DNA of 64,000 nucleotides from positions 1-64,000 of the forward strand of contig JAUWWQ010000013.1 in NCBI GenBank assembly GCA_030616775.1. Reading direction: 5' to 3'. The position numbers were made by a program, and so were the translations under genes. Below the pieces are notes generated by a model, which saw nothing but the letters and a program-made list of their open reading frames with translations, searched no databases and was not told where the DNA came from. Source of the DNA: Planctomycetota bacterium. GTDB taxonomy: Bacteria; Planctomycetota; Phycisphaerae; UBA1845. Positions 8,448 through 24,291 of the stretch are shown piece by piece; position 1 is the first letter of the stretch; every line of letters begins with the position of its first letter.

Positions 8448-9716
8448 CTATTCCGGCCCATCCAACACGCTGAACGGGGAGGATGACGGGAACTTGGGGG
8501 CACCGAGGCCTTCTGCCGGTTCCAGGTCGTCCAACCAACAGGCCTCATCGTCGCGTTTGTAGATCATGAATTGCCCGCGCAACGCAGGATCCTTGGCCCG
8601 GAGGTATCGAAGATAGATGTGCTGGTCATCAACGGCCAGGATCTCGATCTTCCCGGTCTCGTGCGACATCACAAAACGTGCCCGCCGGGCGAGCCCGGAT
8701 CCTCGTCTCAGTGCTTCGCTAAAGACCTCCCAGCCGCGCACGATGGGAACCTTAAAAGATTCGTTTCCCGCGGTCGGCCGACCTTGGAACAAGTAGTACG
8801 GCTGACAACCGATGTACGAAAGCCGACGAAACATCGTCGCGAGCACGTCAGCGTCGTCGTTGATGCCCTTGATGAGCGGGCACTGGTTCACACAGATCAC
8901 GCCGCAGCGAATGAAACAGTCGATGCCTTCAACGGCAACGGATGTAAGCTCCCGCGGATGATCGAAATGTGCCATCAGATAGATGCGCTTGCCAGGCGTT
9001 GAAAACTCCCGAAATGCTTCCTGAAGCTCGAGATCGCGCAGCAACCGCCACGGATCAAATGCGGGGATCTTTGATCCGATCCGGATGATCTCGACGTGCG
9101 GGATCTGCCGCAACGCTTCGAGAGTTTGCCAAAGCCGACGTGTGCTCATCAGCAATGGGTCCCCACCCGTCAGGAGAACGTTGCGGATGCCGGGATTCTT
9201 GGCAATGTAGGCCAGCCCTTCAGACAGGTCGTTCGTAACCTCGACGTTGTCATTCATGAAGAGCCGCTTGCGGAAGCAATATCGGCAGTATGCCCCGCAC
9301 ACCTCATTGCACAGTAGAAGCGCGGTATCCGGATACTTGTGTTGCAGCCCCCGGGCAACCGTGACGGCTTCCTCATTACTAGCGTCCAGCTTGCCCCAGT
9401 CGTTGAGCTCCGCTTCGCAGGGGATGATCAGCCGCTTGATGGGATCATCGGGGTCGTCCCAGTTGATCAGGTCAAGATAGTAGTCGTTTGCCCGGAAGAC
9501 GTATCGCTGGGCGATCTGCTTGAGCCTCTCTCGCTCCTCCGGCGGAATATGTGGGATCTTGTCAATATCACGGATGTACTTCACCCGCCTGAGCGACTCA
9601 GTTCGTGCCTCCAATGTGGTCAGTAAGGGCCGGATCACGGATACCCTTTCGATGTCGAGGACCAATGGACAACCGCAGCGTATTACTACACATCTCGATC
9701 CAACCGTGGGATACAC
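8448..9716 (-). CDS. Radical SAM protein of the lysine 2,3-aminomutase (KamA/EpmB) family
   Basis: The 422-residue product has the iron-sulfur motif CxxxCxxC (Cys140, Cys144, Cys147 in CGAYCRYCFRKR), the family hallmark LLTGGDPLL, and SHETGKIEIL near 350-360, where Lys356 is the likely PLP lysine. These match the aminomutases that move an amino group from C2 to C3 of lysine or a similar amino acid using SAM, a [4Fe-4S] cluster and PLP. EpmB enzymes that modify elongation factor P are close relatives; no efp or epmA gene is in view, so I leave the symbol blank. The first codon is GTG without a clear ribosome site, and a shorter start is possible (GTG at 9638). It lies upstream of the methyltransferase on the same strand. 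Confidence 0.88.
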   Translation of the reverse strand: MYPTVGSRCVVIRCGCPLVLDIERVSVIRPLLTTLEARTESLRRVKYIRDIDKIPHIPPEERERLKQIAQRYVFRANDYYLDLINWDDPDDPIKRLIIPCEAELNDWGKLDASNEEAVTVARGLQHKYPDTALLLCNEVCGAYCRYCFRKRLFMNDNVEVTNDLSEGLAYIAKNPGIRNVLLTGGDPLLMSTRRLWQTLEALRQIPHVEIIRIGSKIPAFDPWRLLRDLELQEAFREFSTPGKRIYLMAHFDHPRELTSVAVEGIDCFIRCGVICVNQCPLIKGINDDADVLATMFRRLSYIGCQPYYLFQGRPTAGNESFKVPIVRGWEVFSEALRRGSGLARRARFVMSHETGKIEILAVDDQHIYLRYLRAKDPALRGQFMIYKRDDEACWLDDLEPAEGLGAPKFPSSSPFSVLDGPE

Positions 9717-9763
9717 TCAACCGCCAAACGGCAACCGAAGAGCCGATGCGCTTGCCCACCTAT

Positions 9764-9800
9764 CCATTATAATTATATCACATAACAAAGGCTTACGTCC
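9764..9800 (-). promoter_or_regulatory. Possible promoter upstream of the aminomutase-like gene
   Basis: On the minus strand two overlapping TATAAT hexamers (9772-9777 and 9766-9771) stand in an AT-rich patch within otherwise GC-rich DNA, about 50 bases upstream of the GTG start. The -35 region is weak (ATGGACG near 9800). Position and the perfect -10 make it the best candidate for this gene's promoter. Confidence 0.4.
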
Positions 9801-10289
9801 ATAAAAAGGCAACTCACCGGCTTACCGAAGGTGGCAAGTGTCACGTTAGCGGTCATGCTCTGTGCGTGTATTTATACCTTTGTGCGGTAAACTAGCTAAA
9901 CGTCGACAACAAGCGGGAAATTACCGGACGGCTGTGAAGCTGGCGTGACATTGCTGCTTCAAACGATCAGCACGGTTAAGTGGCGTCTGAAGCTGTGCGC
10001 ACACGATGAGGAACTTACCTAATATGTCCATTCTCCCAGGATCCCCTAGATTCGCAGCCCTTCACTTTATGGGTATCATTGACCGTCCGGAGGCGAACGG
10101 AGCGGGAAGTTACGCACTTTCGCCGCGGCAGTTCCTCTTGCTCAAATTGGCCACTGAACCAATGTTCGGTGTGTGCTGCGTGCGCATGCTCTGGTGTCTC
10201 CCTATTGGCACCCACACAGCTAACACTGGGTCGATCCCAATGGTCTTGACGCGCGGTGCCTATCGGAAGGCCTCTCGAGGTTTGCGAAG

Positions 10290-10800
10290 CGCCCCGGGGC
10301 AAGATCATTCCATAGCGACAGCTGGCACTGCCGATCACTCAGTAGTGCGTCCAGTGCACCACCGTCTTGAGCGTGTTTGTGACCGAGGCACCCTTGAAGT
10401 ATCCCGCCTAGGCCACATGCTTGCCGCACAACCCGCAGGTGGTGTCCTCGATGGCCAGATCGATCACCGCCTCCGTCGCATACCCCGTAACCAACGGGGC
10501 CACAACGTTGACCAGCAACAACCTACTCACCTCTGGCAACGTCCAGACGGCGCGATTGAAAATGCATTCATACACCGTCCAGTGTTTAGCCGCATGTCCC
10601 AGCAGCGATGTGCCAATGGTGCAGACCAGGTTGGTGAGGGTCGGCATGGACCGACACAACACTCGCCCGGTGGCGATCTGCAGGAACGTGACGTACGTAG
10701 GTTTGCCAAACGCCGCCCCCAGCTCGTGATAAAGGGCCTCCCAGCCTGTTACCAAGGTGGCCTCTATGCCGACCTCCTTTGGTGTGATCAATACAGCCAC
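10290..10800 (-). pseudogene. Decayed DDE transposase (IS701-like)
   Basis: The minus-strand frame from 10800 encodes a segment typical of the N-terminal half of IS701-type transposases: KHWTVYECIFNRAVWTLPEV, SRLLL, then VIDLAIEDTTC in place of the VLALDDT strand with the first catalytic Asp, and CGLCGKHVA. The same frame continues through a TAG at 10408-10410 into AGYFKGASVTNTLKTVVHWT and a TGA before VIGSA. Both stops replace what should be Trp (HVA-W, HY-W) and differ from TGG by one base. After about 10290 the similarity fades, and no C-terminal catalytic Glu region is seen. The element is inactive and old; no terminal repeats could be identified. Confidence 0.6.
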
Positions 10801-10864
10801 ACAATCGGTTCGTCGGGATGGTTCTTCTTGACCCCGAGGTCATCATCAAGATCACTGAAATCGG

Positions 10865-11914
10865 CTAATGTACGCAAAGGTGTGTCTTAAAAAACACAAG
10901 CTGATCGCTCACGCTCTTCTTGAAGTCACTCCCAGTATAGATGTCGAAGTGGCCGATGGGATAATGCTTAACATCCGCATGTTTCCTCAGTTCTTTTTCC
11001 ACTTCGGTGCTTATGGGAGCAAGGATGTCATGGTCACATATCTGAATCAGGACCGGGCAGCGTACCTTCCGGAGGTGTTCGAGTGGTCTGTATCCGTGTG
11101 AGCGCAAAATGACACGAGCACAGACTTCGTTGACAAAGTTCTCCGACGCGAGTCTTCTGTAGCCGTCATACGCATCCGACATGGGAAAAAACGCAATACT
11201 TCCAGGTTTCCCGACGATAGGTATTTTATGGGCCGACAGACCGAGGCGGGACCTCATTACATCACGTTGTCCGTGCATGATCAGGCGGAGAATGTGTCGG
11301 ATGCCTAATCTTTTAACAAACATTTCTCCTGAAGCATGACTATCCAGCCCTGGACATTGCGCACATACACATGCAATACCCTTATCTTGTGCAGCAATCA
11401 CAATACCATATCCACCGCTTGCAGATGTTCCCCAGAGAGCAATTCTTGCCGGATCAACCTCCTTGAGACTCCGAGCATACTTGATCGCTGCTTTATAATC
11501 TTCCAGTTGGTACTGAATCACAAGCAACTGTCGCGGTTCGCCCTCGCTTTCACCATAATGCCGGTAGTCGAATGTAAGTGCAGCAAACCCGGCGGCCTGA
11601 TATCGAAGAGCATAAGGCTCCATGACCATATCCTTAGTGCCGCCAAAACCATTTCCCATAATTATACATGGAACGGGAGTAGACACATCGTCAGGTAGAT
11701 ATAGCCACGCGCTCAATGATGTTCCTTCGACTTCGAAGCTTACGTCCCCCCTGAAGGCGGCTCGTGGTGTGTCGTTCTCCGGGGCCGGCTGACTGGTCTT
11801 CTCCAGGGGTTGCTGTGGAACCGACATGCCAGGGAGAATGGCCACTAGGAAGAGGTAGATGAAGCATGCTGCAAGGATGAAGCCGACAGCTTTAGCAATG
11901 TATAAAAGAGTCAT
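10865..11914 (-). CDS. Membrane-anchored alpha/beta hydrolase
   Basis: I start at the ATG at 11914, with AGGAG eight bases upstream; the longer open frame to 12241 overlaps the DUF6768 gene and has no ribosome site. The 349-residue product has a transmembrane helix at residues 7-28 and then an alpha/beta hydrolase domain: GNGFGGTKD (oxyanion region), the nucleophile Ser164 in WGTSASGGYG, an acid at Asp294/296 in CDHDILAP and His322 in GHFDIY. It resembles the dienelactone-hydrolase/XdhY-type esterases and acyl-peptidases (UPF0227/DUF-type); the exact reaction is open. The domain would face the periplasm or hang on the membrane. It lies 167 bases downstream of the DUF6768 gene on the same strand and may belong to that sigma-factor operon. 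Confidence 0.82.
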   Translation of the reverse strand: MTLLYIAKAVGFILAACFIYLFLVAILPGMSVPQQPLEKTSQPAPENDTPRAAFRGDVSFEVEGTSLSAWLYLPDDVSTPVPCIIMGNGFGGTKDMVMEPYALRYQAAGFAALTFDYRHYGESEGEPRQLLVIQYQLEDYKAAIKYARSLKEVDPARIALWGTSASGGYGIVIAAQDKGIACVCAQCPGLDSHASGEMFVKRLGIRHILRLIMHGQRDVMRSRLGLSAHKIPIVGKPGSIAFFPMSDAYDGYRRLASENFVNEVCARVILRSHGYRPLEHLRKVRCPVLIQICDHDILAPISTEVEKELRKHADVKHYPIGHFDIYTGSDFKKSVSDQLVFFKTHLCVH

Positions 11915-13475: not shown

Positions 13476-15824
13476 TCAGGGCGTCCAGTCGGGTGGGCGG
13501 ATTTGGCTGAGGATGTGACGTGCTGTTGCCACCGAGGCGTTGCGGAAAGTATCCTCCTCGGGTGGTGAGCTCAATACCATGTCGCCCGCTACCTCGAAGC
13601 CGCCAACCAGGCCCATTTCCGAGGTGGACGCATATCGTCGGTCACGTGGAAACACGAAGATGCCCGGGCCGCTGCCGGCCGGGGCGATCAGAATGTTAAC
13701 GCGGTGCTGCTGTGGGTTACCCGCAAGCCACTGCTGGGCGGTGTCATGGGCGCGCTTAAGGCCGTCGCCGTCCGCCGGGAACCGGCAGACGGCCGCCGGA
13801 TAGTGATCCTCCCGGCCGGGTTGCAGCCCCTCAATGGGCATGGGTGTGGTCGTGATTTGATAGTGCAAGTGCCAGGGTATGGTCGCCCCGGCTCCGAAGT
13901 CATTGAACAACACCCGGAAGCGCCCAGCCGTCTGCAGATGCAGGTCGAGCATGGCTTCCAGTACGTGGCAGGAGTAAACCTGATCCACGTGCTCGGCGGC
14001 CATTACGGTGAAATGGTTAGGCTCGATCCAGGCGAAGTTGGCACCGGCGAAGTAGTCACGTCCCGCAAGTCTCACAGGCACCAGCGTCTCCATGGGATGA
14101 CACTCGGCAACGTTCTTGGGGCACAGAAAACAGTGTCGCCCATCCGGGTCACGCGGGTCGCGGAAGAGCTTGTTCTCATCGCGGTGCGGGTCCAGGATGC
14201 CCCGGCGCTGAAGCTCGGGCACGTTGCTGCGAACCTCACGATGAGGCATCCACAAGAACCGGTATGACACGCCGCAGCGATCGTCAAACGCCTCACGTAC
14301 CGACATCTCCACCTTCGCGGGGTCGGTCAACAAGAAGCCCTCCCGCCCCTGAGCCTCCCAGGTTTCGATCAGCGTCTCGGCCAATGGATTGTGCGGCTCA
14401 GCGTGCTGCACGGCAATGTCACTGAGCTTGGGCTCGGTGGTTAAGCCCAGATCGGCCAGCAAATTCTCGGTCATGTGGCGCCAGGTGAAGTATGGGACCG
14501 TGATATTCAGGGCGTGCTCACCCATGCGTCTGCGCAGGACGTCGTCCCGCAACAGTCGCACGAGGGCGGCGGCGAATCCCTCGACCAAGTCGGTCGGTAC
14601 GATCACGCCGGCCTGGCCGAAGAGCAGGTTCTTGGACGGGCCCTTATGGTCCAGGGCCACACGTTCGGGATCGGCGCCCAACAGGTACTCGTACACGAAG
14701 GGTACGAGTTTAGACGAGACGACCGGCGTGCCCGAGGCAGCCGCCTCCTGGGAGGTCATCCCGAATCCTTCCATCACCGAAGGCGTGCAGAAGACATCGG
14801 TCACGTTGTACAGCAAGGGGAGCTGGTCCCAGACCGAACCCAAGACGATGACATCGTCTTGAAGGCCTTGATCAGCGATAAGGTTCAACAGTGAATCGTG
14901 CAGGGCCCCGGCATGAGGATCGATGGAAACCAGCAACAGGGCCTCGGGCACCTGTCTCTTGAGGCGGGCAAAGGCCTTGATCAAGATCTCCTTGCGCTTG
15001 GTCTTGTCGGTCCGGCTGATCTCGGTAACAAGCCTACGGCTCTTTAGCTCTTCCACGCTGAGGCCGGATTGCTCGCGAAGGAACGCCCAGACCGGCTCCA
15101 CTTCGTCAGCAGAACGTGGGCGATAACGGGTCTCGTCCACGCAGGGCGGCAGAAAGTAGCGTGCCTCGAAACCATAGTCCTTGCGGACTGTATTCCGAAT
15201 GGCGGTGGAGGTGGCCACGCAGCCGTCGACCGACTCCAGCAGTTTGCGTTCGTGGGCGATCCGCTCGTCAATGCGAAGGTCGGCCCAGGTAGAGGGGTCC
15301 ATGTTGTGCTTCTTCAAAGCACCGAGCGAGTGAGGGACCCAGAGGTGCGGCATACGCTTGCGACCGGCCCCGTTGAGCATGACACCCAGTTGGCCTGCAT
15401 CCCAATAGTGTGAAATGATCAAGTCATAGCTGTCGCCATTCTGATTGAGCTTGCGGGCAAGGTCCTTGGCCAGCTCGGGCAACTGCTCGCTCATGTCCTC
15501 CTTGCGGACGAATGCGGACAGCCCATCTTCGAGATAGATGATCCGCGCGTGTCCGGAGGGATGGTAGATTACGCCGGTCTGCATACGGCCGGTTACGGGA
15601 TGACGATACCCGCCGCGGTTGGCAATGGTCACGCGGTAGCCTTGAGCAACCAGGGCTTCGGTGAACTGGTTGACGTAGACGTTCTGTCCACCGGTGTCGG
15701 GAAGGCCGGGGACCACCTTCCATTCGTGCACACCATGGTTGGTGATCATCAGCACGTGCGTTCGCCCGCTGCGGGTGAAGCACTCGTGCGGGTCATCAAC
15801 AGACAGCTTCCCTGTCGCTACCAT
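13476..15824 (-). CDS. Sucrose-phosphate-synthase-type GT4 enzyme fused to a HIT/Ap4A-phosphorylase-like domain
   Basis: The 782-residue product has two enzyme parts. Residues 22-480 are a retaining GT-B glycosyltransferase of family 4, closest in pattern to sucrose-phosphate synthases: PGLPDTGGQNVYV near the start, SHYWDAG at 138, PHSLG at 164, a phosphate-binding R..K block around 271-278 and the E-x7-E motif (Glu352, Glu360 in MEGFGMTSQEA). Residues about 500-780 match the Ap4A-phosphorylase/GDP-galactose-phosphorylase (DUF4922-like) branch of the HIT superfamily: CFLCPKN at 565, FNDFGAGATIPWHLHYQIT with the H-x-H-x-Q triad at 652-656, and a final GGFEVAGDMVL strand. Such enzymes phosphorolyse or hydrolyse nucleotide bonds. 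The fusion could recycle or supply the nucleotide sugar. AGGAAC precedes the ATG. It follows the phosphatase gene by 92 bases. Confidence 0.85.
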   Translation of the reverse strand: MVATGKLSVDDPHECFTRSGRTHVLMITNHGVHEWKVVPGLPDTGGQNVYVNQFTEALVAQGYRVTIANRGGYRHPVTGRMQTGVIYHPSGHARIIYLEDGLSAFVRKEDMSEQLPELAKDLARKLNQNGDSYDLIISHYWDAGQLGVMLNGAGRKRMPHLWVPHSLGALKKHNMDPSTWADLRIDERIAHERKLLESVDGCVATSTAIRNTVRKDYGFEARYFLPPCVDETRYRPRSADEVEPVWAFLREQSGLSVEELKSRRLVTEISRTDKTKRKEILIKAFARLKRQVPEALLLVSIDPHAGALHDSLLNLIADQGLQDDVIVLGSVWDQLPLLYNVTDVFCTPSVMEGFGMTSQEAAASGTPVVSSKLVPFVYEYLLGADPERVALDHKGPSKNLLFGQAGVIVPTDLVEGFAAALVRLLRDDVLRRRMGEHALNITVPYFTWRHMTENLLADLGLTTEPKLSDIAVQHAEPHNPLAETLIETWEAQGREGFLLTDPAKVEMSVREAFDDRCGVSYRFLWMPHREVRSNVPELQRRGILDPHRDENKLFRDPRDPDGRHCFLCPKNVAECHPMETLVPVRLAGRDYFAGANFAWIEPNHFTVMAAEHVDQVYSCHVLEAMLDLHLQTAGRFRVLFNDFGAGATIPWHLHYQITTTPMPIEGLQPGREDHYPAAVCRFPADGDGLKRAHDTAQQWLAGNPQQHRVNILIAPAGSGPGIFVFPRDRRYASTSEMGLVGGFEVAGDMVLSSPPEEDTFRNASVATARHILSQIRPPDWTP

Positions 15825-15916: not shown

Positions 15917-16666
15917 TCACAACCACCCGTATGCTTCCAACCCTTCCTGGACGCCCTCGGCGTAGAAAGCGCGTGCGTGGTAGACGTTAGGAGCCCGAAA
16001 GCCCTTGAGCTCCTCTTCGGCGTTACCTACAGCAATGCTGCGAAAACCGAGTTCGGGACGCATCATGTCCAGATCGTTGCCTGAATCTCCACTGGTAATA
16101 ACGTTATCGGGTCCCAAGCCATAGTGTCGGGCTACGAACCGCACAGCCTCACCCTTACCGGAGCGAATGGGCAGCAGGTCCAGGAATCTACCCGCGGAGT
16201 ACACAACCTTCGCTCGAATGCCCGCTTGCTCGAGCCGACCGTGGATTTCCGCCAGACGCTCTTCGACGTTTTCCTCGAGGTAGTGGCTACTCTTGAAGGG
16301 CGACTGCCACTGCTCGTCCTGCATCCGCGTTTCCGGAATCGAACGGATGATAACCTCGACGGCGTTCTTATCCCAATCCTCAGCGATGGTCTTGTGCCAG
16401 GTAGGGTCCAGGTAATATGCGCCACGGTCCCAGAAATACACGTCCGTGCCGACCATACAAATGCACGCGTCCGAACGGTCGGATGCCGATAAACCGGTCT
16501 GCTGCTTCTCGGCGTAGAAGTCCTGGATCGATTGTAGGTGCCGACCGGTGGAGAAGGCCACCAGGATGCCGTGGGTCTGCAAAGTAGCCCACAATCTGAG
16601 CATCGCCTGGTCGTCGCCGATAAAAGTACCGTCCAGGTCCGTGGCGAGCAATCGCTTTGCCGGCAT
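15917..16666 (-). CDS. HAD-family sucrose-phosphate phosphatase-like enzyme
   Basis: I chose the ATG at 16666, which follows GAGGAG and gives the short N-terminus MPAKRLLATDLDGTF usual for the family. Asp10 and Asp12 of DLDGT are the nucleophile and acid; STGRH is the loop after motif II; a Lys in RSGKGEA is motif III; GDSGNDLDM is motif IV. The small cap of the Cof/S6PP type lies between motifs II and III. These HAD enzymes remove phosphate from sucrose-6-phosphate. The gene precedes the GT4-HIT gene in the same direction, so synthase and phosphatase are made together, as in other sucrose pathways. A related role on glucosylglycerol or mannosyl phosphate cannot be excluded. Confidence 0.85.
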   Translation of the reverse strand: MPAKRLLATDLDGTFIGDDQAMLRLWATLQTHGILVAFSTGRHLQSIQDFYAEKQQTGLSASDRSDACICMVGTDVYFWDRGAYYLDPTWHKTIAEDWDKNAVEVIIRSIPETRMQDEQWQSPFKSSHYLEENVEERLAEIHGRLEQAGIRAKVVYSAGRFLDLLPIRSGKGEAVRFVARHYGLGPDNVITSGDSGNDLDMMRPELGFRSIAVGNAEEELKGFRAPNVYHARAFYAEGVQEGLEAYGWL

Positions 16667-17047
16667 GTAACTCCTCGCCTTATTCGGTTGCGGCACAGCC
16701 CGGTCGTTGGCCGCAGGTCTCAGGTATAAGCTGCAATACAACAGGTAATGGTGACAACAGCTTCTTCCAGCTTGGGCCCGGTCATACCCGACCGGATCGC
16801 CGGCCCAAGGGGCTGCAAATCATAGGCAGAATCGGACGCCCGGGCAAAGGTCTCCCAGGCCGACGTTGATCCCGCCTGTCACCTGAACATCGCCTTGGAT
16901 GACTATCGCGAGACAATCGACGGCCGCCTTGTCGTAAGCGGCGGGTAGCGAGCGCAGGCCTGGGTCTGTAGGATGTGGCTGCGAGTAAAGAACGTGGCGC
17001 AACCATTCTATTCAGACCGGGGTGGGAATAAGGCGAGAGGCTTGATC
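16667..17047. other. Divergent promoter region between the phosphatase and the sugar importer
   Basis: This 381-base gap lies between genes transcribed away from each other, so both promoters should be here. I see no gene, no regulator gene and no obvious operator. Confidence 0.35.
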
Positions 17048-18349
17048 GTGCCGAGCGCCTTGATGCGACGCTTTACGGTACCGGCAGCCTTCGTAGCCGG
17101 TACCGTCCTGGTATCCACGATCGCCCAGTGCAATCGCCAATCGGGATCTACCGGCGCCCGAGTCATTATGGTCTGGGCGCATCATGGGCAAGAGCGCGAG
17201 AACGCCGCCATGCGGCGCATTGCCGAGGCGTTCAACGAGCGTCACCGGGATCAGCAGATACGCATCGACATTAGCTTCTTTCCTGACCGCCAGTACGCGG
17301 ACAAGGTCTCGATTGCATCGGCCTCGGCTTCTCTGCCGGATGTGCTCGACATCGATGGCCCGTACGTCGGCCCCTGGGCGGCGGAAGGAGTGCTGCAACC
17401 CCTCGGTTACCTGGTGAGCGAGAAGCTCAGGACTGACATGCTCCCGTCACTACTGGAACAGGGGACTTATGATGGGAAGCTTTACGCGCTCGGCGCATTT
17501 GAGTCCGCCCTGGTCGTTTACTACAACCGTGACATAATCGAAAATGCCGGCCTGGACCCGCCCGATCGTCTTGCAGGCGCATGGACCTGGAGTGAATTCG
17601 TCGAGGCGCTTATGCGAGTCAAGCCCCACGTTACGATTCCTCTCTCGCTACACATGGACGATCACAGCGACGAGTGGTTTACGTACGCATTCTCGCCTCT
17701 GATCTGGTCCAACGGCGGTGGCCTGATCGATCCTGACTCCGGGAACGTGCTCGGTGTATTGGATTCCAGGCCGACAATCGAAGCCGTCAGACGCTGGCAG
17801 CGGTTGTTTGAGAAGGGGCTGGCTCAGGGCACATCGACAAACCCGAATCCATTCGCGGCGGGCTTGGCTGCCTTTGATTGGACCGGTCACTGGATGCTTC
17901 CGGGCTTCGAGCAGACCACGGCACTTCGATTCGGAGTCATGCCGCTTCCTTCCATGGGGGACAAGCCGGTCTGTGCTTCAGGCAGTTGGTGCTGGGGTAT
18001 CTCACGAGACTGTAGGGACCGGTCGTTGGCGTGGCAGGCAATCCGCTGGTTTCTGGATCCGGCCCAAGGTATTCGACCGATTGTGCAGGCCAACGGGGCG
18101 GTTCCCGGTCGGCGCAGCGCATTTGAGTATTTCCCCGAGTATGACAGAATGCCGCGTCGGCTGTTCCGTGAGCAGCTCGAAGGCGGTGCCCATCCCCGGC
18201 CGCGGACCCCGGTGTACCTGTCGTTGACCAGCGCACTTGCGAGGGCCTTGCGCGATATTGCGCTCGGCGCCGACGTGGAACGTACATTGCGCCGTGCCGC
18301 CGAGTCGGTCCAGCGAGTTGCGGATCGTCAAGGCCGACGCGGAGGATGA
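17048..18349 (+). CDS. ABC transporter sugar-binding protein
   Basis: The product belongs to the extracellular solute-binding family 1 (MalE/UgpB type). It has an N-terminal hydrophobic segment (PAAFVAGTVLVSTIAQC) that looks like a lipoprotein signal, although IAQC is a poor lipobox. The core shows VIMVWAHHGQERENAAMRRI, PDVLDIDGPYVGPWAAEGVL and YDGKLYALGAFESALVVYYN, the classic sugar-binding pattern with aromatic stacking residues, and later WTWSEFVEAL. I prefer the GTG at 17048, which has GAGAGG upstream; an ATG at 17063 is the alternative. It is followed by two permease genes, giving a three-gene importer operon. In this locus the ligand could be sucrose or another compatible sugar, but the sequence cannot prove it. 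Confidence 0.9.
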   Translation: MPSALMRRFTVPAAFVAGTVLVSTIAQCNRQSGSTGARVIMVWAHHGQERENAAMRRIAEAFNERHRDQQIRIDISFFPDRQYADKVSIASASASLPDVLDIDGPYVGPWAAEGVLQPLGYLVSEKLRTDMLPSLLEQGTYDGKLYALGAFESALVVYYNRDIIENAGLDPPDRLAGAWTWSEFVEALMRVKPHVTIPLSLHMDDHSDEWFTYAFSPLIWSNGGGLIDPDSGNVLGVLDSRPTIEAVRRWQRLFEKGLAQGTSTNPNPFAAGLAAFDWTGHWMLPGFEQTTALRFGVMPLPSMGDKPVCASGSWCWGISRDCRDRSLAWQAIRWFLDPAQGIRPIVQANGAVPGRRSAFEYFPEYDRMPRRLFREQLEGGAHPRPRTPVYLSLTSALARALRDIALGADVERTLRRAAESVQRVADRQGRRGG

Positions 18350-18364: not shown

Positions 18365-19252
18365 GTGGCCCGTCGAGAGATGCTCACGGCCTACATGTTT
18401 GTGGCTCCGGCCATTCTTATGATTGCGGCGTTTGTCCTTTGGCCGGCCGTCATCACGTTCCACACCAGTCTGCACAGGACCACACTGACCGACCCGGGAC
18501 CGGGCGAGTACTGTGGAGTCGAGAACTACCGCGCCGTGATGAGCGACCCTGAGTTTCGTCGCAGCGCCATAAACACGATCGTCTTTACGGTACTGGTCGT
18601 TCCTGCTCAGACGGTTCTGGCGCTGCTCCTTGCCCAATGGACCAACGGACCGGGTTGGGCGAGCCGCTCACTGAGACTCGCCGTCCTGATCCCCACGATG
18701 ATTTCACTTACCGTACTGAGCGTTCTGTGGAAGTTGCTTTATGAGCCGGTTTCGGCGACCGGCTCGGGTTTGTTTAACGGGATACTCACCAGCCTGCACC
18801 TGCCGCCGCAGCCGTTCCTGACCAGCCCCCGACAGGCGATGCCGGCCATTGTGGTGATGAGCATATGGCAGGGAGTGGGTTTCCAGATGATGATCTTTCT
18901 GTGCGCCTTGCAGCAGATTCCCGCGCAGCTCCGTGAGGCGGCGTTGCTCGACGGGGCCGGTCGATGGCGTCGATTCTGCCACGTGACCCTGCCGGGGATC
19001 GCTCCAACGGCTGCATTCGTCGTCATGATGACGACCATCTTCGCGTTGAAGCTGTTCGTTCAGCCTTTCCTGATGACCAGAGGCGGCCCGCAAGGATCCA
19101 CCCTGTCGATAGTGCAGTTCATCTATGAAACAACCTTCTTCAGGCGTGATCTCGGTCTGGCCTGTGCGGCCGGTGCGGTCTTCTTCGTAGGCGTGTCCAC
19201 GATCGCCGTCGTTTTACGGCGGATGCTCAGAGCCGCGGAGTGCTTACGATGA
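18365..19252 (+). CDS. ABC sugar transporter permease (MalF/UgpA type)
   Basis: The 295-residue inner-membrane protein begins with GTG after a GGGAGG ribosome site and has six predicted helices. The EAA loop that contacts the ATPase is clear (EAALLDGAGRWRRFCHVTLP, residues about 196-215), with the conserved Gly and Pro. Features such as MFVAPAILMIAAFVLWP and SLHRTTL at the start are typical of MalF/UgpA subunits. It lies 15 bases after the binding-protein gene and overlaps the next permease gene by an ATGA, so all three are one operon. Confidence 0.93.
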   Translation: MARREMLTAYMFVAPAILMIAAFVLWPAVITFHTSLHRTTLTDPGPGEYCGVENYRAVMSDPEFRRSAINTIVFTVLVVPAQTVLALLLAQWTNGPGWASRSLRLAVLIPTMISLTVLSVLWKLLYEPVSATGSGLFNGILTSLHLPPQPFLTSPRQAMPAIVVMSIWQGVGFQMMIFLCALQQIPAQLREAALLDGAGRWRRFCHVTLPGIAPTAAFVVMMTTIFALKLFVQPFLMTRGGPQGSTLSIVQFIYETTFFRRDLGLACAAGAVFFVGVSTIAVVLRRMLRAAECLR

Positions 19253-20109
19253 CAAGGTCCGGGCACACCGTGCGGGCACTGACGGCCTTGGCTGCTCTCT
19301 TTGTCGGCGTTACCTTTCTCATACCTGTAATATGGATGTTTGCTGCCTCGTTGAAGCCGGAGTCGGCGATCCATAGGGACGTTGGGGCGGTCCGCAGCTT
19401 CGTTCCCGCACCGCCGACGCTCGAGAATTACCGCGGCGCATTTCACCGGGGCGATGTCGGAATCACGTTGGTGAACACATTGATTGTGGTTACCGTGATC
19501 ACGCTGGGCGGGTTGCTGGTAAATGGGCCGGCCGCGTTTGCCTTCGCCAGAATGCGGTTTCGGGGCTGCGAACTGCTGTTCCTGCTCATAGTGACTACGA
19601 TCATTATCCCCTTGGAGCTGATCGTCATCCCGTTGTTCATGACCGTCCGGACGACACGCGGTCTGGTCGAGATCATCGGTGAGCGACCTTGGACCCTCGC
19701 CGCCCTGAGCATCCCGTTTATGGCCAAGGCCTTCAACATCTTCCTGCTCCGCCAGTACTTTCTGGCCCTGCCTCGATCCCTCGAAGAGGCGGCATTTATG
19801 GATGGGGTCGGCTGGTGGGGAGTCTACTGGCGGGTGGCTTTGCCCAACGCCAAGACCGCAATCACAACCGTGATACTACTGGACTTCATCGTGCACTGGA
19901 ATGACTTTCTGTGGCCCTTGGTGATCTGCCAGGCCGCCAACACTCGCACAGTGCAGCTCGGTCTTGGTAACTTCTTTACGCAGCCGCCTATATCGTGGGG
20001 GGCCATTATGGCTTACGCAGTACTGGCTACGATACCGATGATGTTGATACTCGGCGTCGGTCAAAAGAGGATTGCGCAATCACTGGTCACTACTGGAATA
20101 CGGGAGTAG
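19249..20109 (+). CDS. ABC sugar transporter permease (MalG/UgpE type)
   Basis: This partner permease starts at the ATG at 19249, overlapping the previous stop as ATGA, with GGAG eight bases upstream; an in-frame GTG at 19240 lacks correct spacing. The product of about 286 residues has the MalG-type opening (IPVIWMFAASLKPESAI), six helices and the EAA loop (EEAAFMDGVGWWGVYWRVAL). The C-terminal block SWGAIMAYAVLATIPMM is typical of the family. No ATP-binding subunit gene (MsmK/UgpC type) is in the operon or window, so the transporter must borrow one encoded elsewhere, as is common for this class. Confidence 0.93.
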   Translation: MTRSGHTVRALTALAALFVGVTFLIPVIWMFAASLKPESAIHRDVGAVRSFVPAPPTLENYRGAFHRGDVGITLVNTLIVVTVITLGGLLVNGPAAFAFARMRFRGCELLFLLIVTTIIIPLELIVIPLFMTVRTTRGLVEIIGERPWTLAALSIPFMAKAFNIFLLRQYFLALPRSLEEAAFMDGVGWWGVYWRVALPNAKTAITTVILLDFIVHWNDFLWPLVICQAANTRTVQLGLGNFFTQPPISWGAIMAYAVLATIPMMLILGVGQKRIAQSLVTTGIRE

Positions 20110-20372: not shown

Positions 20373-21055
20373 GTGTGGACAATGGTGGATTCTTGGGAGA
20401 AAACAGTGGTTGGGATCGGCGAACTGCTGTGGGATTGCTTCGGCGAGCTTCGTCGTCCGGGGGGTGCTCCGGCGAATGTTGCCTTTCACGCCTCCCAGCT
20501 CGGCCTTAATGGTGTGATTTGTTCGCGCGTCGGGTCGGATGCCATGGGTGATGCACTGCTACAGCACTTGCGCGGCCAAGGGCTCGAGATACAGTACATT
20601 CAGCGTGACGGGGAACATCCCACTGGGAACGTGACTGTCGAGACCACGCGCGTTGACCAGCCCAGCTATCGGATCCACGAGAATGTAGCCTGGGACCACT
20701 TGGAGTTCGACAGCCGCTTATCCAACCTTTTTGAAAACGCGTCCGCAATATGCTACGGCACATTGGCGCAGCGATCATCGCAAAGTCGTAGTATCATCGC
20801 GCGGGCTCTGGGCGCGAGCCGAAGCGCTCTGCGGGTTTACGACGTCAATCTACGGCCGCCCTACTATACGCAGCAGACCATCGAGGCCTCCCTGCAACTG
20901 GCTGATGTCGTGAAGCTCAACATTGGCGAGGTAGCCGTTGTCGCACCCATGCTGGGACTTGATGCGGACGATGTGCAGGGTTTCAGCGACACACTTCGAA
21001 TGTCGTATGGAGTTGAGCTTGTCTGCATAACGCGCGGTAAGAACGGTTGCGTCGC
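20373..21055 (+). pseudogene. Fructokinase (PfkB family), 3' end lost
   Basis: The first 225 or so residues are a clear PfkB sugar kinase: VVGIGELLWDCFGE, the sugar-binding GGAPANVAFHASQLG, PTGNVTVET, YDVNLRPPYY and VKLNIGEV, ending with VCITRGKNGCVAM. At that point the fructokinase reading should continue toward the GAGDAF motif, which supplies the anion hole and catalytic Asp. Instead the DNA switches to IS66 transposase sequence in another frame, and the fructokinase frame runs on as nonsense to 21218. Without GAGD the enzyme cannot phosphorylate sugar. The start is GTG at 20373 after AGGAAGAGG; an ATG at 20382 is also possible. Before the lesion the gene converged on the glucosidase-like gene. 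Confidence 0.85.
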
Positions 21056-21351
21056 TATGGCGAGTACATCTTCACCTTCGTGGATTATCCCTACGTGCCT
21101 GCGGATAACAACTTCGGAGAAAGGCAGATCCGGCCAGCGGTCATCTTGCGGAAGAATCCCGACGCGTCGGGATCGAATCGTTCGGACCGCGGCGCGGCCA
21201 CCCAGGCCGTTCTCATGAGCGTGTATCGCACACTGCGTCTTCGCGGCCTCAACCAAACCAAAACCATCGCCGATGCCCTCAAGACCTACCTGACCACCGG
21301 GAAACTCCCGCAGTTACCCGAGTAAACCATTGCACATGGCTGACCTCTTAC
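21045..21351 (+). mobile_element. IS66-family remnant (transposase C-terminus and right end)
   Basis: Bases 21047-21325 encode the last 90 residues of an IS66 transposase: VDYPYVPADNNFGERQIRPA, VILRKNPDASG, SNRSDRGAATQAVLMSVYRT and TIADALKTYLTTGKLPQLPE. The E of NNFGERQIR is the last catalytic residue. The transposase stop is at 21323-21325, and the element seems to end at 21351: read inward from there the sequence begins GTAAGAGG, and IS66 inverted repeats begin GTAA. The left end and about four fifths of the transposase are missing. The remnant joins the fructokinase at about 21050 and the glucosidase-like gene at 21351/21352. Confidence 0.85.
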
Positions 21352-21854
21352 GATCGAGGAAAAAGGTCCGTCCAATCCGATGCCTCCGGGACCTCCAGCA
21401 ACCCGCAGTTATTCGAGTCGTGTGCCCGCAGCCATTTCATCGTCCGGTGAATCTTCCCGAAATAACGCTTGGCAAACTCCTCGTCACCGGTGACTCTCAC
21501 GTAGTTCCAGGCCGCTATGACAGTCCACAGGGCCCCGTCGATGCCGGCTATGTTCCCAATACCGCCATATTGTGGTTCACCCGTGTCGATGTCGACATAG
21601 TTGGGAAGATGACCATCACGAGATTGACTACCCAGGATCGTTTCCAACGAGCGGCGCGAACAGGCCGTAAGCTCCGCATCTCCCAACGGCAAGGACCACA
21701 TTCCGGTCATTGCGGAGTCGCGGGCCCAGACGCTCCCGTAGTTGCTGCCGGGATCGTCGTCGTGCTTGACGCTACAGGCGCTGAAGCCCCGCTGTGTAAC
21801 GTTCATACGGAGGACTTCCTTGGCTCTTTGGAATGCTTCGTCGAGGAGACTCAC
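21348..21854 (-). pseudogene. Invertase/amylo-glucosidase-like glycoside hydrolase, 3' end lost
   Basis: The 168 residues match the first third of an alpha/alpha-barrel glycoside hydrolase related to amylo-alpha-1,6-glucosidases and neutral invertases: GSNYGSVWARDSAMTGMWSL, SRDGHLPNYVD, GIDGALWTVIAAWNYVRVTG and LLEVPEASDWTDLFPRS. Relatives continue with a Tyr and several hundred further residues including the catalytic acid. Here the frame meets a TAA formed by the end of the IS66 remnant, so the protein is cut inside the barrel and is probably dead. The GTG start lies six bases after the stop of the sucrose-phosphate-synthase-like gene, so they were one operon. Confidence 0.8.
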
Positions 21855-21860
21855 GATCGC

Positions 21861-23204
21861 CTAGGTCGCCAATAAGGAGACTTCTTCCAACCAGGTCTCA
21901 CTGTCTGTCTCTCGCTCCTTGGCGCTGTCATGTTCAATGCTCACGCGCGACGGCAGACGTTCGATATGGCTGAGAATCTGCTGGGCGACGCCCGTCCAGG
22001 TAAAACGAGCCCGAGCCTTTTGCGAGCCGTACTTGGCTAGCTGTCCGGTGATCCGTGAATCCTGGAGCACGGCGCAAATCGCATGCCCGAACGCTTCAGG
22101 ATCGAAGGGATTCGCGTAAATGGCCTCCAGGCCCCAGATTAGCAACTCCCAAAGACCTCCCTCGGTGGTGATTACGGTAGGTGTCCCACAAGCCATCGCT
22201 TCAACGGCCGTCATGCCAAACGGCTCGTAACGGCTGCTCAGCGCGAACACGTCGGTGATCCGGTAATAGTCGGCCAGTTCCTCGTCGGAAATGTAATCCC
22301 GGAATATCACCCGGTCGGCCACACCGAGCTTGACCGCCAGCTCCTTGAGTTCGCCGATCTGCTCACGCTCCCGTGAGGTGGGCTCCGTGGAGCCCAAGGC
22401 CAAAAGCAGTCTGGCATCTTTGATCCGCTTGAACACGATGGGCATCGCCTGAATGAGCAGGTCGTACCCCTTATTGTGGGCCATCCGCCCCAGTGCAAGC
22501 ACCAGCCGTCCCTCCACCCCGATCTCCTGCTTCAGCGTCATTCTCGATGCTCGGGATACGGGAAAGAACCGCGTATCGTCGTAACCGGGTGGGACGACGT
22601 GAATCTTCTCTCGCGGCACGTCGTATTCCCCGTCGCACAGAATGTCACGTTGCTGTGATGTGGTTGCGATGAGCCCATCGCATTCGTCGTAGAGAACCTT
22701 TTCCTTGCGGATGCGCTTGCGGAAGTTGTAGTTGCGCTCGAGCTCCTCGGGATCGCCGTCCATGTTGTCTCGCTTCCACGAGCCGATGGAGTGCGGCGTA
22801 TGAAGGTGGGGAATGTTAAGCTTGTTGGCAAGCGACTGCCCGGCCAGGCCTGCGTCCCAATAGTGGCTGTTGATGAACGAGTAGCGCAGTCGTTTGGCTT
22901 CGATGAAGCGTCGCACGTTGGCCACCCACTCAGGGATGTGCTCGCACAGGGTCTCCTTGGGTATGAATCCCTTCCCGCCACATGGGAAGCGAAGCACGCG
23001 CACGCGCGGTGATACCTTCTCCGAGCGCGGCTGGTTCTCGAAGCGCCTGGTGAGGATGTCCACCTGATACCCCATACGGCCCAGGCACTTGCTCAGCTCC
23101 AGGACATATGCGACCTGACCACCGGTGTCGGGTTTACCCAATTCCGGTTCGGCCGCCACGTAGCCGTGTGTTGAGATCATCATTATGCGTTGTTTGACAG
23201 GCAC
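21861..23204 (-). CDS. Sucrose-phosphate-synthase-like glycosyltransferase (GT4)
   Basis: I start at the GTG at 23204, which lies six bases after a strong AAGGAGG; the frame extends to 23300 but without a site. The 447-residue product is a GT-B retaining enzyme: PDTGGQVAYVLELSKCL (donor-side glycine loop), NSHYWDAGLAGQSL, LHTPHSIGSWKRDNM, LGRMAHNKGYDLLI with Arg and Lys for the donor phosphates, and YEPFGMTAVEAMACGTPTV with the E-x7-E pair. These are the features of sucrose-phosphate and sucrose synthases, which use UDP- or ADP-glucose. It shares the start of a two-gene unit with the truncated glucosidase-like gene. It differs from the GT4-HIT protein, so the locus holds two such transferases. 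Confidence 0.88.
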   Translation of the reverse strand: MPVKQRIMMISTHGYVAAEPELGKPDTGGQVAYVLELSKCLGRMGYQVDILTRRFENQPRSEKVSPRVRVLRFPCGGKGFIPKETLCEHIPEWVANVRRFIEAKRLRYSFINSHYWDAGLAGQSLANKLNIPHLHTPHSIGSWKRDNMDGDPEELERNYNFRKRIRKEKVLYDECDGLIATTSQQRDILCDGEYDVPREKIHVVPPGYDDTRFFPVSRASRMTLKQEIGVEGRLVLALGRMAHNKGYDLLIQAMPIVFKRIKDARLLLALGSTEPTSREREQIGELKELAVKLGVADRVIFRDYISDEELADYYRITDVFALSSRYEPFGMTAVEAMACGTPTVITTEGGLWELLIWGLEAIYANPFDPEAFGHAICAVLQDSRITGQLAKYGSQKARARFTWTGVAQQILSHIERLPSRVSIEHDSAKERETDSETWLEEVSLLAT

Positions 23205-24291
23205 CACATACCTCCTTGTTGAACTGGCCGGCAGGCTACGGCTCATCAGATTCCTTGAAGCACCTGAATAAAGCCGATCGCTACATATCAGGAGCGGCAC
23301 CTTCCAAATGTACCGGCGTGACCTCGCGGCAAGACCAAAGGCATGCGCGATGTCACGATGAGACGACAGACGAAGATGCAGCCCTACAACTTGAGAGTCT
23401 ACACCCTCGGCGATCCGCTGGCAATACGTCAGGCTGAGAAAGGCGTCGACTTGTTCTGATCATCCCGGAAAAACGTGTAGAAGTGTGTGACATTCTTGAG
23501 CCAATGATGCGCTGTAGCCCGGCGTTACCTGCGTATCGCATAGAAAGACGGCTCAAAGCGCGTCGCGTTTGCAAGGGGCGCCAGGCCTTGGAATCCCTGA
23601 AAACGCATGCGCCTTAAAAATGGGATTTATCTTGGAAAGTTTTACTATACACGCGAGATGTCCATCGATTACAGTCCATGAATCTTGGCAGCCATCTGGG
23701 CGGTGCGTCAAAGCGTATTTCACAGGTTTGGGGGCTTAGGCATTTTCCCTACGTGGGGACATCCTCCCTGTGACTGATGCCTCGCTTCTTCGCCCCAGAT
23801 GCCGAACCACGCCCTCTACAAACCACGCCGTCAACTGACCCGTTCCCACCTCGGTTGAACCGAGACCACATTCAGTAAACCATGCCCGATCACCTGAGCA
23901 ACGCTTATGAGCCGACCTGCTTAAGGACAGACTGCTCGAAGGGTAAGCGCGCATCCAGGGGCTGAAAATCCATGCGACATTCGTTTCCCGACGTGGTCTT
24001 GGAGTTTCTGAGTTTTCCGCGCACGGGGGATCCATCCTTGGATCCCCGCCCCGTCGGTACCTTGTGCGGTGGGTGTTCCCAAAGAACGATCCGATTGGCT
24101 GTTCGGCCGGTGCTTTGCCTGATTGGCCCTGCGGGGTGACGATTCACGGCCAAGAGTCTGCACGGCCTCCCACTGACCGCTAATCGGCGCACTTTCTTGT
24201 GGCGACTGCGTGGGGTACGATTAGTGTTCCTGACCGGCGGATGGTTGGACCGACGACCACGCCACCGGCCGATGAGCACGAGGTGCCATTT
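23205..24291. other. 1.1 kb without a recognisable gene
   Basis: Open frames on both strands are short and lack family signatures. Visible items are a strong ribosome site and the presumed promoter of the synthase-like gene at the left, an AT-rich patch near 23610-23660, and a perfect nine-base inverted repeat GGGGATCCA-TCCT-TGGATCCCC at about 24025-24046. Such a gap in otherwise compact DNA may be a graveyard of a deleted gene or may hold an RNA gene I cannot see. Confidence 0.4.

Follow-up and report, generated by a model that had tools for sequence, protein, structure and literature searches.

What might a single bacterial polypeptide do that carries a sugar transferase at its N-terminus and a domain of the HIT superfamily at its C-terminus? 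The question is raised by an open reading frame in a stretch of 64,000 nucleotides (hereafter the window, meaning the whole stretch that was analysed). The source genome measures 4.45 Mb and is 98% complete, and its relatives, judged by name, are MAGs of the Phycisphaerae (Planctomycetota).

The fused reading frame and its seam

The frame counts 782 codons, with an ATG start and zero internal stops (Table 1). As the preliminary description had it, one uninterrupted chain holds both domains, and all the motifs named there were located: TGGQNVYV (residues 44-51), SHYWDAG (138-144), E352-x7-E360, CFLC (565-568) and HLHYQ (652-656). A Pfam search with the protein returned Glycos_transf_1 with an E-value of 5.4e-24, the GT4 domains spanning residues 45-457. 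The profile search of the C-terminal part, on which the claim of a second domain hung, matched PF16269 (DUF4922) at residues 562-658 with 34.5-36.6 bits, above the gathering cut-off of 23.6. The join had been put at around residue 490 and is now placed at about residues 463-479. The full-length AlphaFold model (pLDDT 79, pTM 0.60) is poor near the linker, and the domain contacts were left unread; a staggered alignment is probably behind its weak C-terminal part.

Table 1. Positions of the fused reading frame, its domains and key residues, and the neighbouring genes in the window
Feature	Position	Strand	Basis
Fused ORF, 782 aa, GT4 glycosyltransferase + DUF4922/HIT domain	13476..15824	(-)	ORF + Pfam
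GT4N domain, residues 1-462, own clade of SPS-related GT4	14439..15824	(-)	Pfam, alignments, tree
K108, aligned with TeSPS R105 (acceptor phosphate)	15501..15503	(-)	alignment; TeSPS roles PMC7264703
R188, aligned with TeSPS R178 (acceptor phosphate); Gln in sucrose synthases	15261..15263	(-)	alignment; TeSPS roles PMC7264703
Seam/linker, residues 460-480, EPKLSDIAVQHAEPHN; stop and new start codon here in relatives	14385..14447	(-)	junction comparison
DUF4922 domain, residues 480-782, predicted Apa2 (Ap4A-phosphorylase) fold	13479..14387	(-)	PF16269, AlphaFold model, Z 21.3
C565-F-L-C568, with H612 and H652 possible GalT-type zinc site	14121..14132	(-)	homologue alignment
H652-L-H654-Y-Q656, HIT-type H-x-H-x-Q	13857..13871	(-)	homologue alignment
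SPP-like HAD phosphatase SPP-N, directly upstream of fused ORF	15917..16741	(-)	S6PP 2.3e-57; tree
Sugar ABC importer, binding protein	16973..18349	(+)	SBP_bac_1
Sugar ABC importer, permease A	18365..19252	(+)	BPD_transp_1
Sugar ABC importer, permease B	19240..20109	(+)	BPD_transp_1
PfkB-family (fructokinase-like) kinase, 3' end lost after about residue 230	20373..21218	(+)	PfkB; G002 comparison
GH100-like (neutral invertase-type) hydrolase, N-terminal 168 aa only	21348..21854	(-)	homologues match Glyco_hydro_100; G002 comparison
GT4b, second SPS-like GT4	21861..23300	(-)	Pfam, alignment, tree; G011 block

Orthologues were sought in 100 relatives and in one genome per species for ~85,000 species. 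This search yielded G038, G056, G059 and two MAGs labelled Actinomycetes, and five further genomes with both parts were found among the relatives of the latter two. The fused state was seen in the window genome only; the ten other genomes with both parts (10/10) have them as adjacent separate genes in the same order. Of the full-length homologues, G038 is the closest (64%); its two genes (L034 4576-5955 and 5968-6981) are in frame and the junction reads GTT TAA GGA AGG TAA AGC ATG, with a length that differs by one codon from that of the window seam. At seven junctions the stop of the GT4N gene and the start of the DUF4922 gene overlap (ATGA, ATGGCTGA and similar). Considering that the two genes of the relatives abut or overlap, and that the window seam lacks a stop, an ATG and anything like a Shine-Dalgarno sequence, the fusion is most readily explained by the loss of a stop in one lineage within an already tight operon, as represented by one MAG. 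In the two genomes of the same genus the gene is interrupted before the seam, by 100 N after residue 444 (G002) and by the end of the contig after residue 116 (G001).

The fused frame could instead be an assembly or consensus error of this MAG, the living organism having two adjacent genes, which would be compatible with any reading of the function. Such an error would agree with the two genes in all ten relatives with both parts, one base change could mask the stop (e.g. TAG to GAG at codon 464), and a second site ~6 kb away (21051-21348) looks rearranged in this MAG when compared with G002. We nevertheless hold it to be fairly unlikely, as a ribosome-binding site and an ATG were lost besides the stop and the seam length is within one codon of that in G038, which points to a natural, frame-preserving change.

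The GT4N domain and its acceptor site

The N-terminal domain, here called GT4N, scored 75.9 bits against TIGR02472 (sucrose-phosphate synthase, SPS), compared to a cut-off of 576 and to 667-675 bits for bona fide SPS of the same class, and 13.9 bits against TIGR02470 (sucrose synthase, SuS), compared to a cut-off of 810.4. In the tree, the GT4N clade falls outside the group of SPS, SuS and GT4b. Its sister clade consists of GT4 proteins of about 590-620 amino acids, with a 140-residue insert and a Gln for the second Glu of E-x7-E. Members of this sister clade are encoded at L102 (G026, 8870-11274), L010 and L013, and in L102 and L013 the next gene encodes a P-loop kinase.

In TeSPS the acceptor phosphate is held by R105 and R178 (PMC7264703). 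The aligned K108 and R188 are invariant in 11 of 11 GT4N sequences, which thus have the basic residues of the SPS acceptor site. Moreover, K108, Y140, S166 and R188 all match SPS, MshA differing by a Thr at 166. In SuS from the same class positions 108-109 are occupied by R-F, 166 by A and 188 by Q (Q188 in 3/3). Given K108 and R188, as opposed to the Gln188 of the sucrose synthases, GT4N probably accepts a sugar phosphate. Its donor motif reads EGFGM, versus EPFGL in SPS, and in view of this and of the low SPS score another donor or acceptor is possible (mannose, for example, or a reaction that yields something other than sucrose).

The identity of a sucrose synthase, which the preliminary description had also used, was rejected because score and tree speak against it and the acceptor site resembles those of SPS and MshA, not that of SuS. 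Its assignment to the SPS type holds for the acceptor residues, but not for the TIGR02472 cut-off, which was missed, nor for the clade. With SPS (TIGR02472; TeSPS 6KIH, HoSPS 2R60) the domain has in common the GT4 fold, the TGGQ loop, E-x7-E, the acceptor-phosphate residues and an SPP neighbour; it differs from SPS in clade, score and donor motif. Going by these sequence comparisons, GT4N is a separate clade that keeps SPS-type phosphate-binding acceptor residues and is neither a bona fide SuS nor a curated SPS. We know of no SPS with a HIT partner.

Fold and residues of the DUF4922 domain

AlphaFold modelled the C-terminal domain (303 residues, using 14 homologues) with a mean pLDDT of 95. 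A sequence search of the domain against the PDB gave no match, and relatives were obtained by fold comparison alone. In the structural alignment yeast Apa2, an Ap4A phosphorylase (PDB 4i5w/4i5t/4i5v), was by a wide margin the top match (Z 21.3, rmsd 3.0, 250 of 303 residues); weaker matches (Z 5-8) were found to DUF4931, the ADP-glucose phosphorylase At5g18200 (Z 7.4) and GalT (about 6), and the fold also matches HINT. The H-x-H-x-Q motif (H652, H654, Q656) on such a fold places the domain in the HIT superfamily, as had been proposed from the motif. The fold shared with Apa2 extends over nearly the whole domain, although identity is ~18% and the DUF4922 domain, unlike Apa2, adjoins or is fused to a GT4. 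At E-values up to 1, DUF4922 was the sole Pfam match in the C-terminal part, with none to the Ap4A phosphorylase/ATP adenylyltransferase families or to the GalT domains.

His652 and His654 are invariant in the homologues (14/14), and H654 is the predicted nucleophile. Likewise, Cys565, Cys568, His612 and His652 are invariant (14/14); they form a putative zinc site of the GalT type, the set being one that we take to resemble the zinc ligands of GalT. To our knowledge, no activity has been described for this DUF4922 clade. Position 656 is Gln in 11 of the homologues and His in three, all actinobacterial; hydrolysis is possible in these three, given their H-x-H-x-H. With Q656 in place of the third His, the motif is the two-histidine one of the GGP/GDPGP type, and in GGP the lack of the third His is reported to give phosphate the advantage over water (PMC11066809). 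VTC2/GGP, GDPGP1 and At5g18200 thus share superfamily and motif with the domain, to which their chemistry (NDP-hexose + Pi; PMC11066809) may extend; they differ in being stand-alone plant and animal enzymes of other pathways. In plants, some homologues carry the annotation DUF4922/GDP-D-glucose phosphorylase (PMC11047344; for the DUF4922 superfamily annotation see also PMC9871823). Phosphorolysis of an NDP-sugar, as suggested in the preliminary description, is the most economical reading of what the domain may do.

A GalT-like exchange, in which the HIT domain would shift NMP between two sugar-1-phosphates and so provide an unusual donor for the GT4, appears improbable to us. HIT transferases with H-x-H-x-Q (GalT) do catalyse this, and GGP has a weak guanylyltransferase activity towards hexose-1-phosphates (PMC11066809), but the predicted fold is much nearer to Apa2 than to GalT and the GalT Pfam domains were not matched.

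Gene pairing and a proposed NDP-recycling unit

GT4N and DUF4922 are adjacent or fused in all genomes that have both on an unbroken contig (11/11), and DUF4922 comes directly after each GT4N on such contigs, both in the Phycisphaerae (4/4, the fusion counted) and in the actinobacterial MAGs (7/7). As the genes adjoin in every such genome, and in two phyla, a functional link is indicated rather than a chance join. This bears out the earlier view of the protein as part of a pathway, and suggests that the GT4 and DUF4922 steps work as a unit. The converse is looser, since in G808, G822 and G730 there is no GT4N near the DUF4922 relative. Relatives were absent from the viral contigs searched, and a plasmid search gave no full-length match. 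A chance or frameshift join as the origin of the pairing was rejected, the genes being neighbours in ten other genomes from two phyla; the fused state itself rests on one MAG.

In G233 (L046 7438-9795) a gene for a trehalose synthase of the TreT type (PF21269, 2.2e-56) lies 9 bp before a more distant DUF4922 relative, which is an independent GT4-DUF4922 pairing with the same logic. TreT is likewise a GT4 that exchanges NDP-glucose and a non-reducing disaccharide; its acceptor is free glucose and it is not fused to DUF4922. In G076 a typical DUF4922 gene overlaps a GT2-like glycosyltransferase gene (L049 136-2122; GT2 read from the sequence). These partners bear on the proposal that the domain senses or hydrolyses Ap4A or another dinucleotide and so sets sugar synthesis by stress signals. 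Ap4A phosphorylase is indeed the best fold match, but a fold does not specify a substrate, and the partners are glycosyltransferases (GT4N, TreT, the GT2 of G076) and not stress genes; with nothing beyond fold similarity speaking for it, this signalling role seems very unlikely.

The phosphatase SPP-N forms a clade of its own and was, among the examined genomes, found beside GT4N only. An intact SPP-N precedes GT4N in the Phycisphaerae and in one actinobacterial MAG. In the actinobacterial MAGs the unit comes after a LacI-type regulator (as read from the sequence), a binding protein, two permeases and a GH32N protein. A protein of the S6PP family is missing from seven actinobacterial genomes of the set, and in G759 a decayed SPP-like gene, without its DxDGT motif and conserved lysine, stands before an intact GT4N-DUF4922 pair (L080 2446-3153). 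The unit is thus also kept where there is no phosphatase.

We propose, and give it an even chance, that the protein is a unit of a glycosyltransferase and a nucleotide-sugar phosphorylase in which NDP is recycled. The DUF4922 domain would interconvert NDP-glucose + Pi and NDP + glucose-1-phosphate via a nucleotidylated H654, and the GT4 domain would pass glucose from NDP-glucose to a phosphorylated acceptor, or back, with fructose-6-phosphate the likeliest candidate. Both sites would handle NDP and NDP-glucose: as the GT4 would release NDP and consume NDP-sugar and the HIT phosphorylase would do the opposite (or both the reverse), NDP would cycle as a cofactor. The net balance would be glucose-1-phosphate + fructose-6-phosphate = sucrose-6-phosphate + Pi. 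Formation of NDP-glucose from NDP and glucose-1-phosphate is estimated to be uphill in free energy, and the synthetic direction would therefore need a strong pull. In the Phycisphaerae the adjoining SPP-N may provide it, drawing the reaction towards a free non-reducing sugar; in the actinobacteria without SPP the unit may run towards breakdown. The same net reaction is known from the sucrose 6F-phosphate phosphorylase (GH13_18, RgSPP; PMC6521584), which shares the gene context of importer and kinase, but is a single glycoside phosphorylase of unrelated fold without a nucleotide cofactor. No paper on a coupled SPS or TreT and NDP-sugar phosphorylase was found in the open-access literature.

The two domains, their conserved pairing and the acceptor and HIT residues were observed and the fold is predicted; substrates, nucleotide, coupling and direction we infer. 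In favour of the recycling unit we count the Apa2-like fold, H-x-H-x-Q, the pairing with GT4N, the TreT case, the acceptor residues, the SPP-N clade and the sucrose genes nearby (GH100-like, GH32N, PfkB, ABC importer). The lack of a described activity for the clade, the members with H-x-H-x-H, the uphill formation of NDP-glucose, the low SPS score, EGFGM and the absent or decayed S6PP in actinobacterial genomes count against it.

Alternatively, the DUF4922 domain could be an editing or overflow valve that clears wrong or surplus NDP-sugar and keeps the transferase specific, or halts synthesis at high phosphate, neither supplying the donor nor completing breakdown. Of the two directions phosphorolysis is favoured, and among characterised sequence relatives the nearest that papers name are phosphorylases of GDP-glucose and GDP-galactose (see PMC11066809, PMC11047344). 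A clean-up role of this kind is ascribed to GDP-D-glucose phosphorylase. The strict one-to-one adjacency or fusion with one GT4 and the retention without SPP, however, fit a catalytic partner better than general clean-up, and we regard a valve as unlikely. More tentatively, and doubtful in our own estimate, the recycling unit would be a one-protein disaccharide-phosphate phosphorylase/synthase, in which a Leloir transferase and a HIT nucleotidyl-phosphorylase run on a small NDP pool without nucleoside triphosphate, so that two sugar phosphates are joined into a non-reducing sugar phosphate or released from it, TreT-DUF4922 being a second independent use. DUF4922, for which no assigned bacterial function was found, would gain a specific, testable role beside glycosyltransferases, and the fused protein offers a handy test object in a single polypeptide. 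If the proposal is true, a Leloir transferase is coupled to a phosphorylase with the nucleotide merely as cofactor, and pathway annotation would overlook a way in which sucrose-like sugars are made or broken down.

Some minor observations concern the surroundings. GT4b is likely the housekeeping sucrose-phosphate synthase, as judged from its sequence, its place in the tree and a gene block in G011. G011, which has GT4b without GT4N-DUF4922, carries another SPP (about 33% identical), and its sucrose genes form a compact block GT4b-SPP-GH100-like with PfkB convergent (L104 6937-11265). An Rfam search of the window between 9 and 26 kb gave no match. The PfkB and GH100-like genes of the window (20373-21854) are truncated at their facing ends, where ~1.1 kb of G002 is replaced by ~298 bp of unrelated sequence, either by a deletion or by an assembly misjoin. 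Elsewhere in the window genome a short ORF of 176 aa gives a second, weak DUF4922-like match (L059, G000:C36:93427-93747), which has a counterpart in G038.
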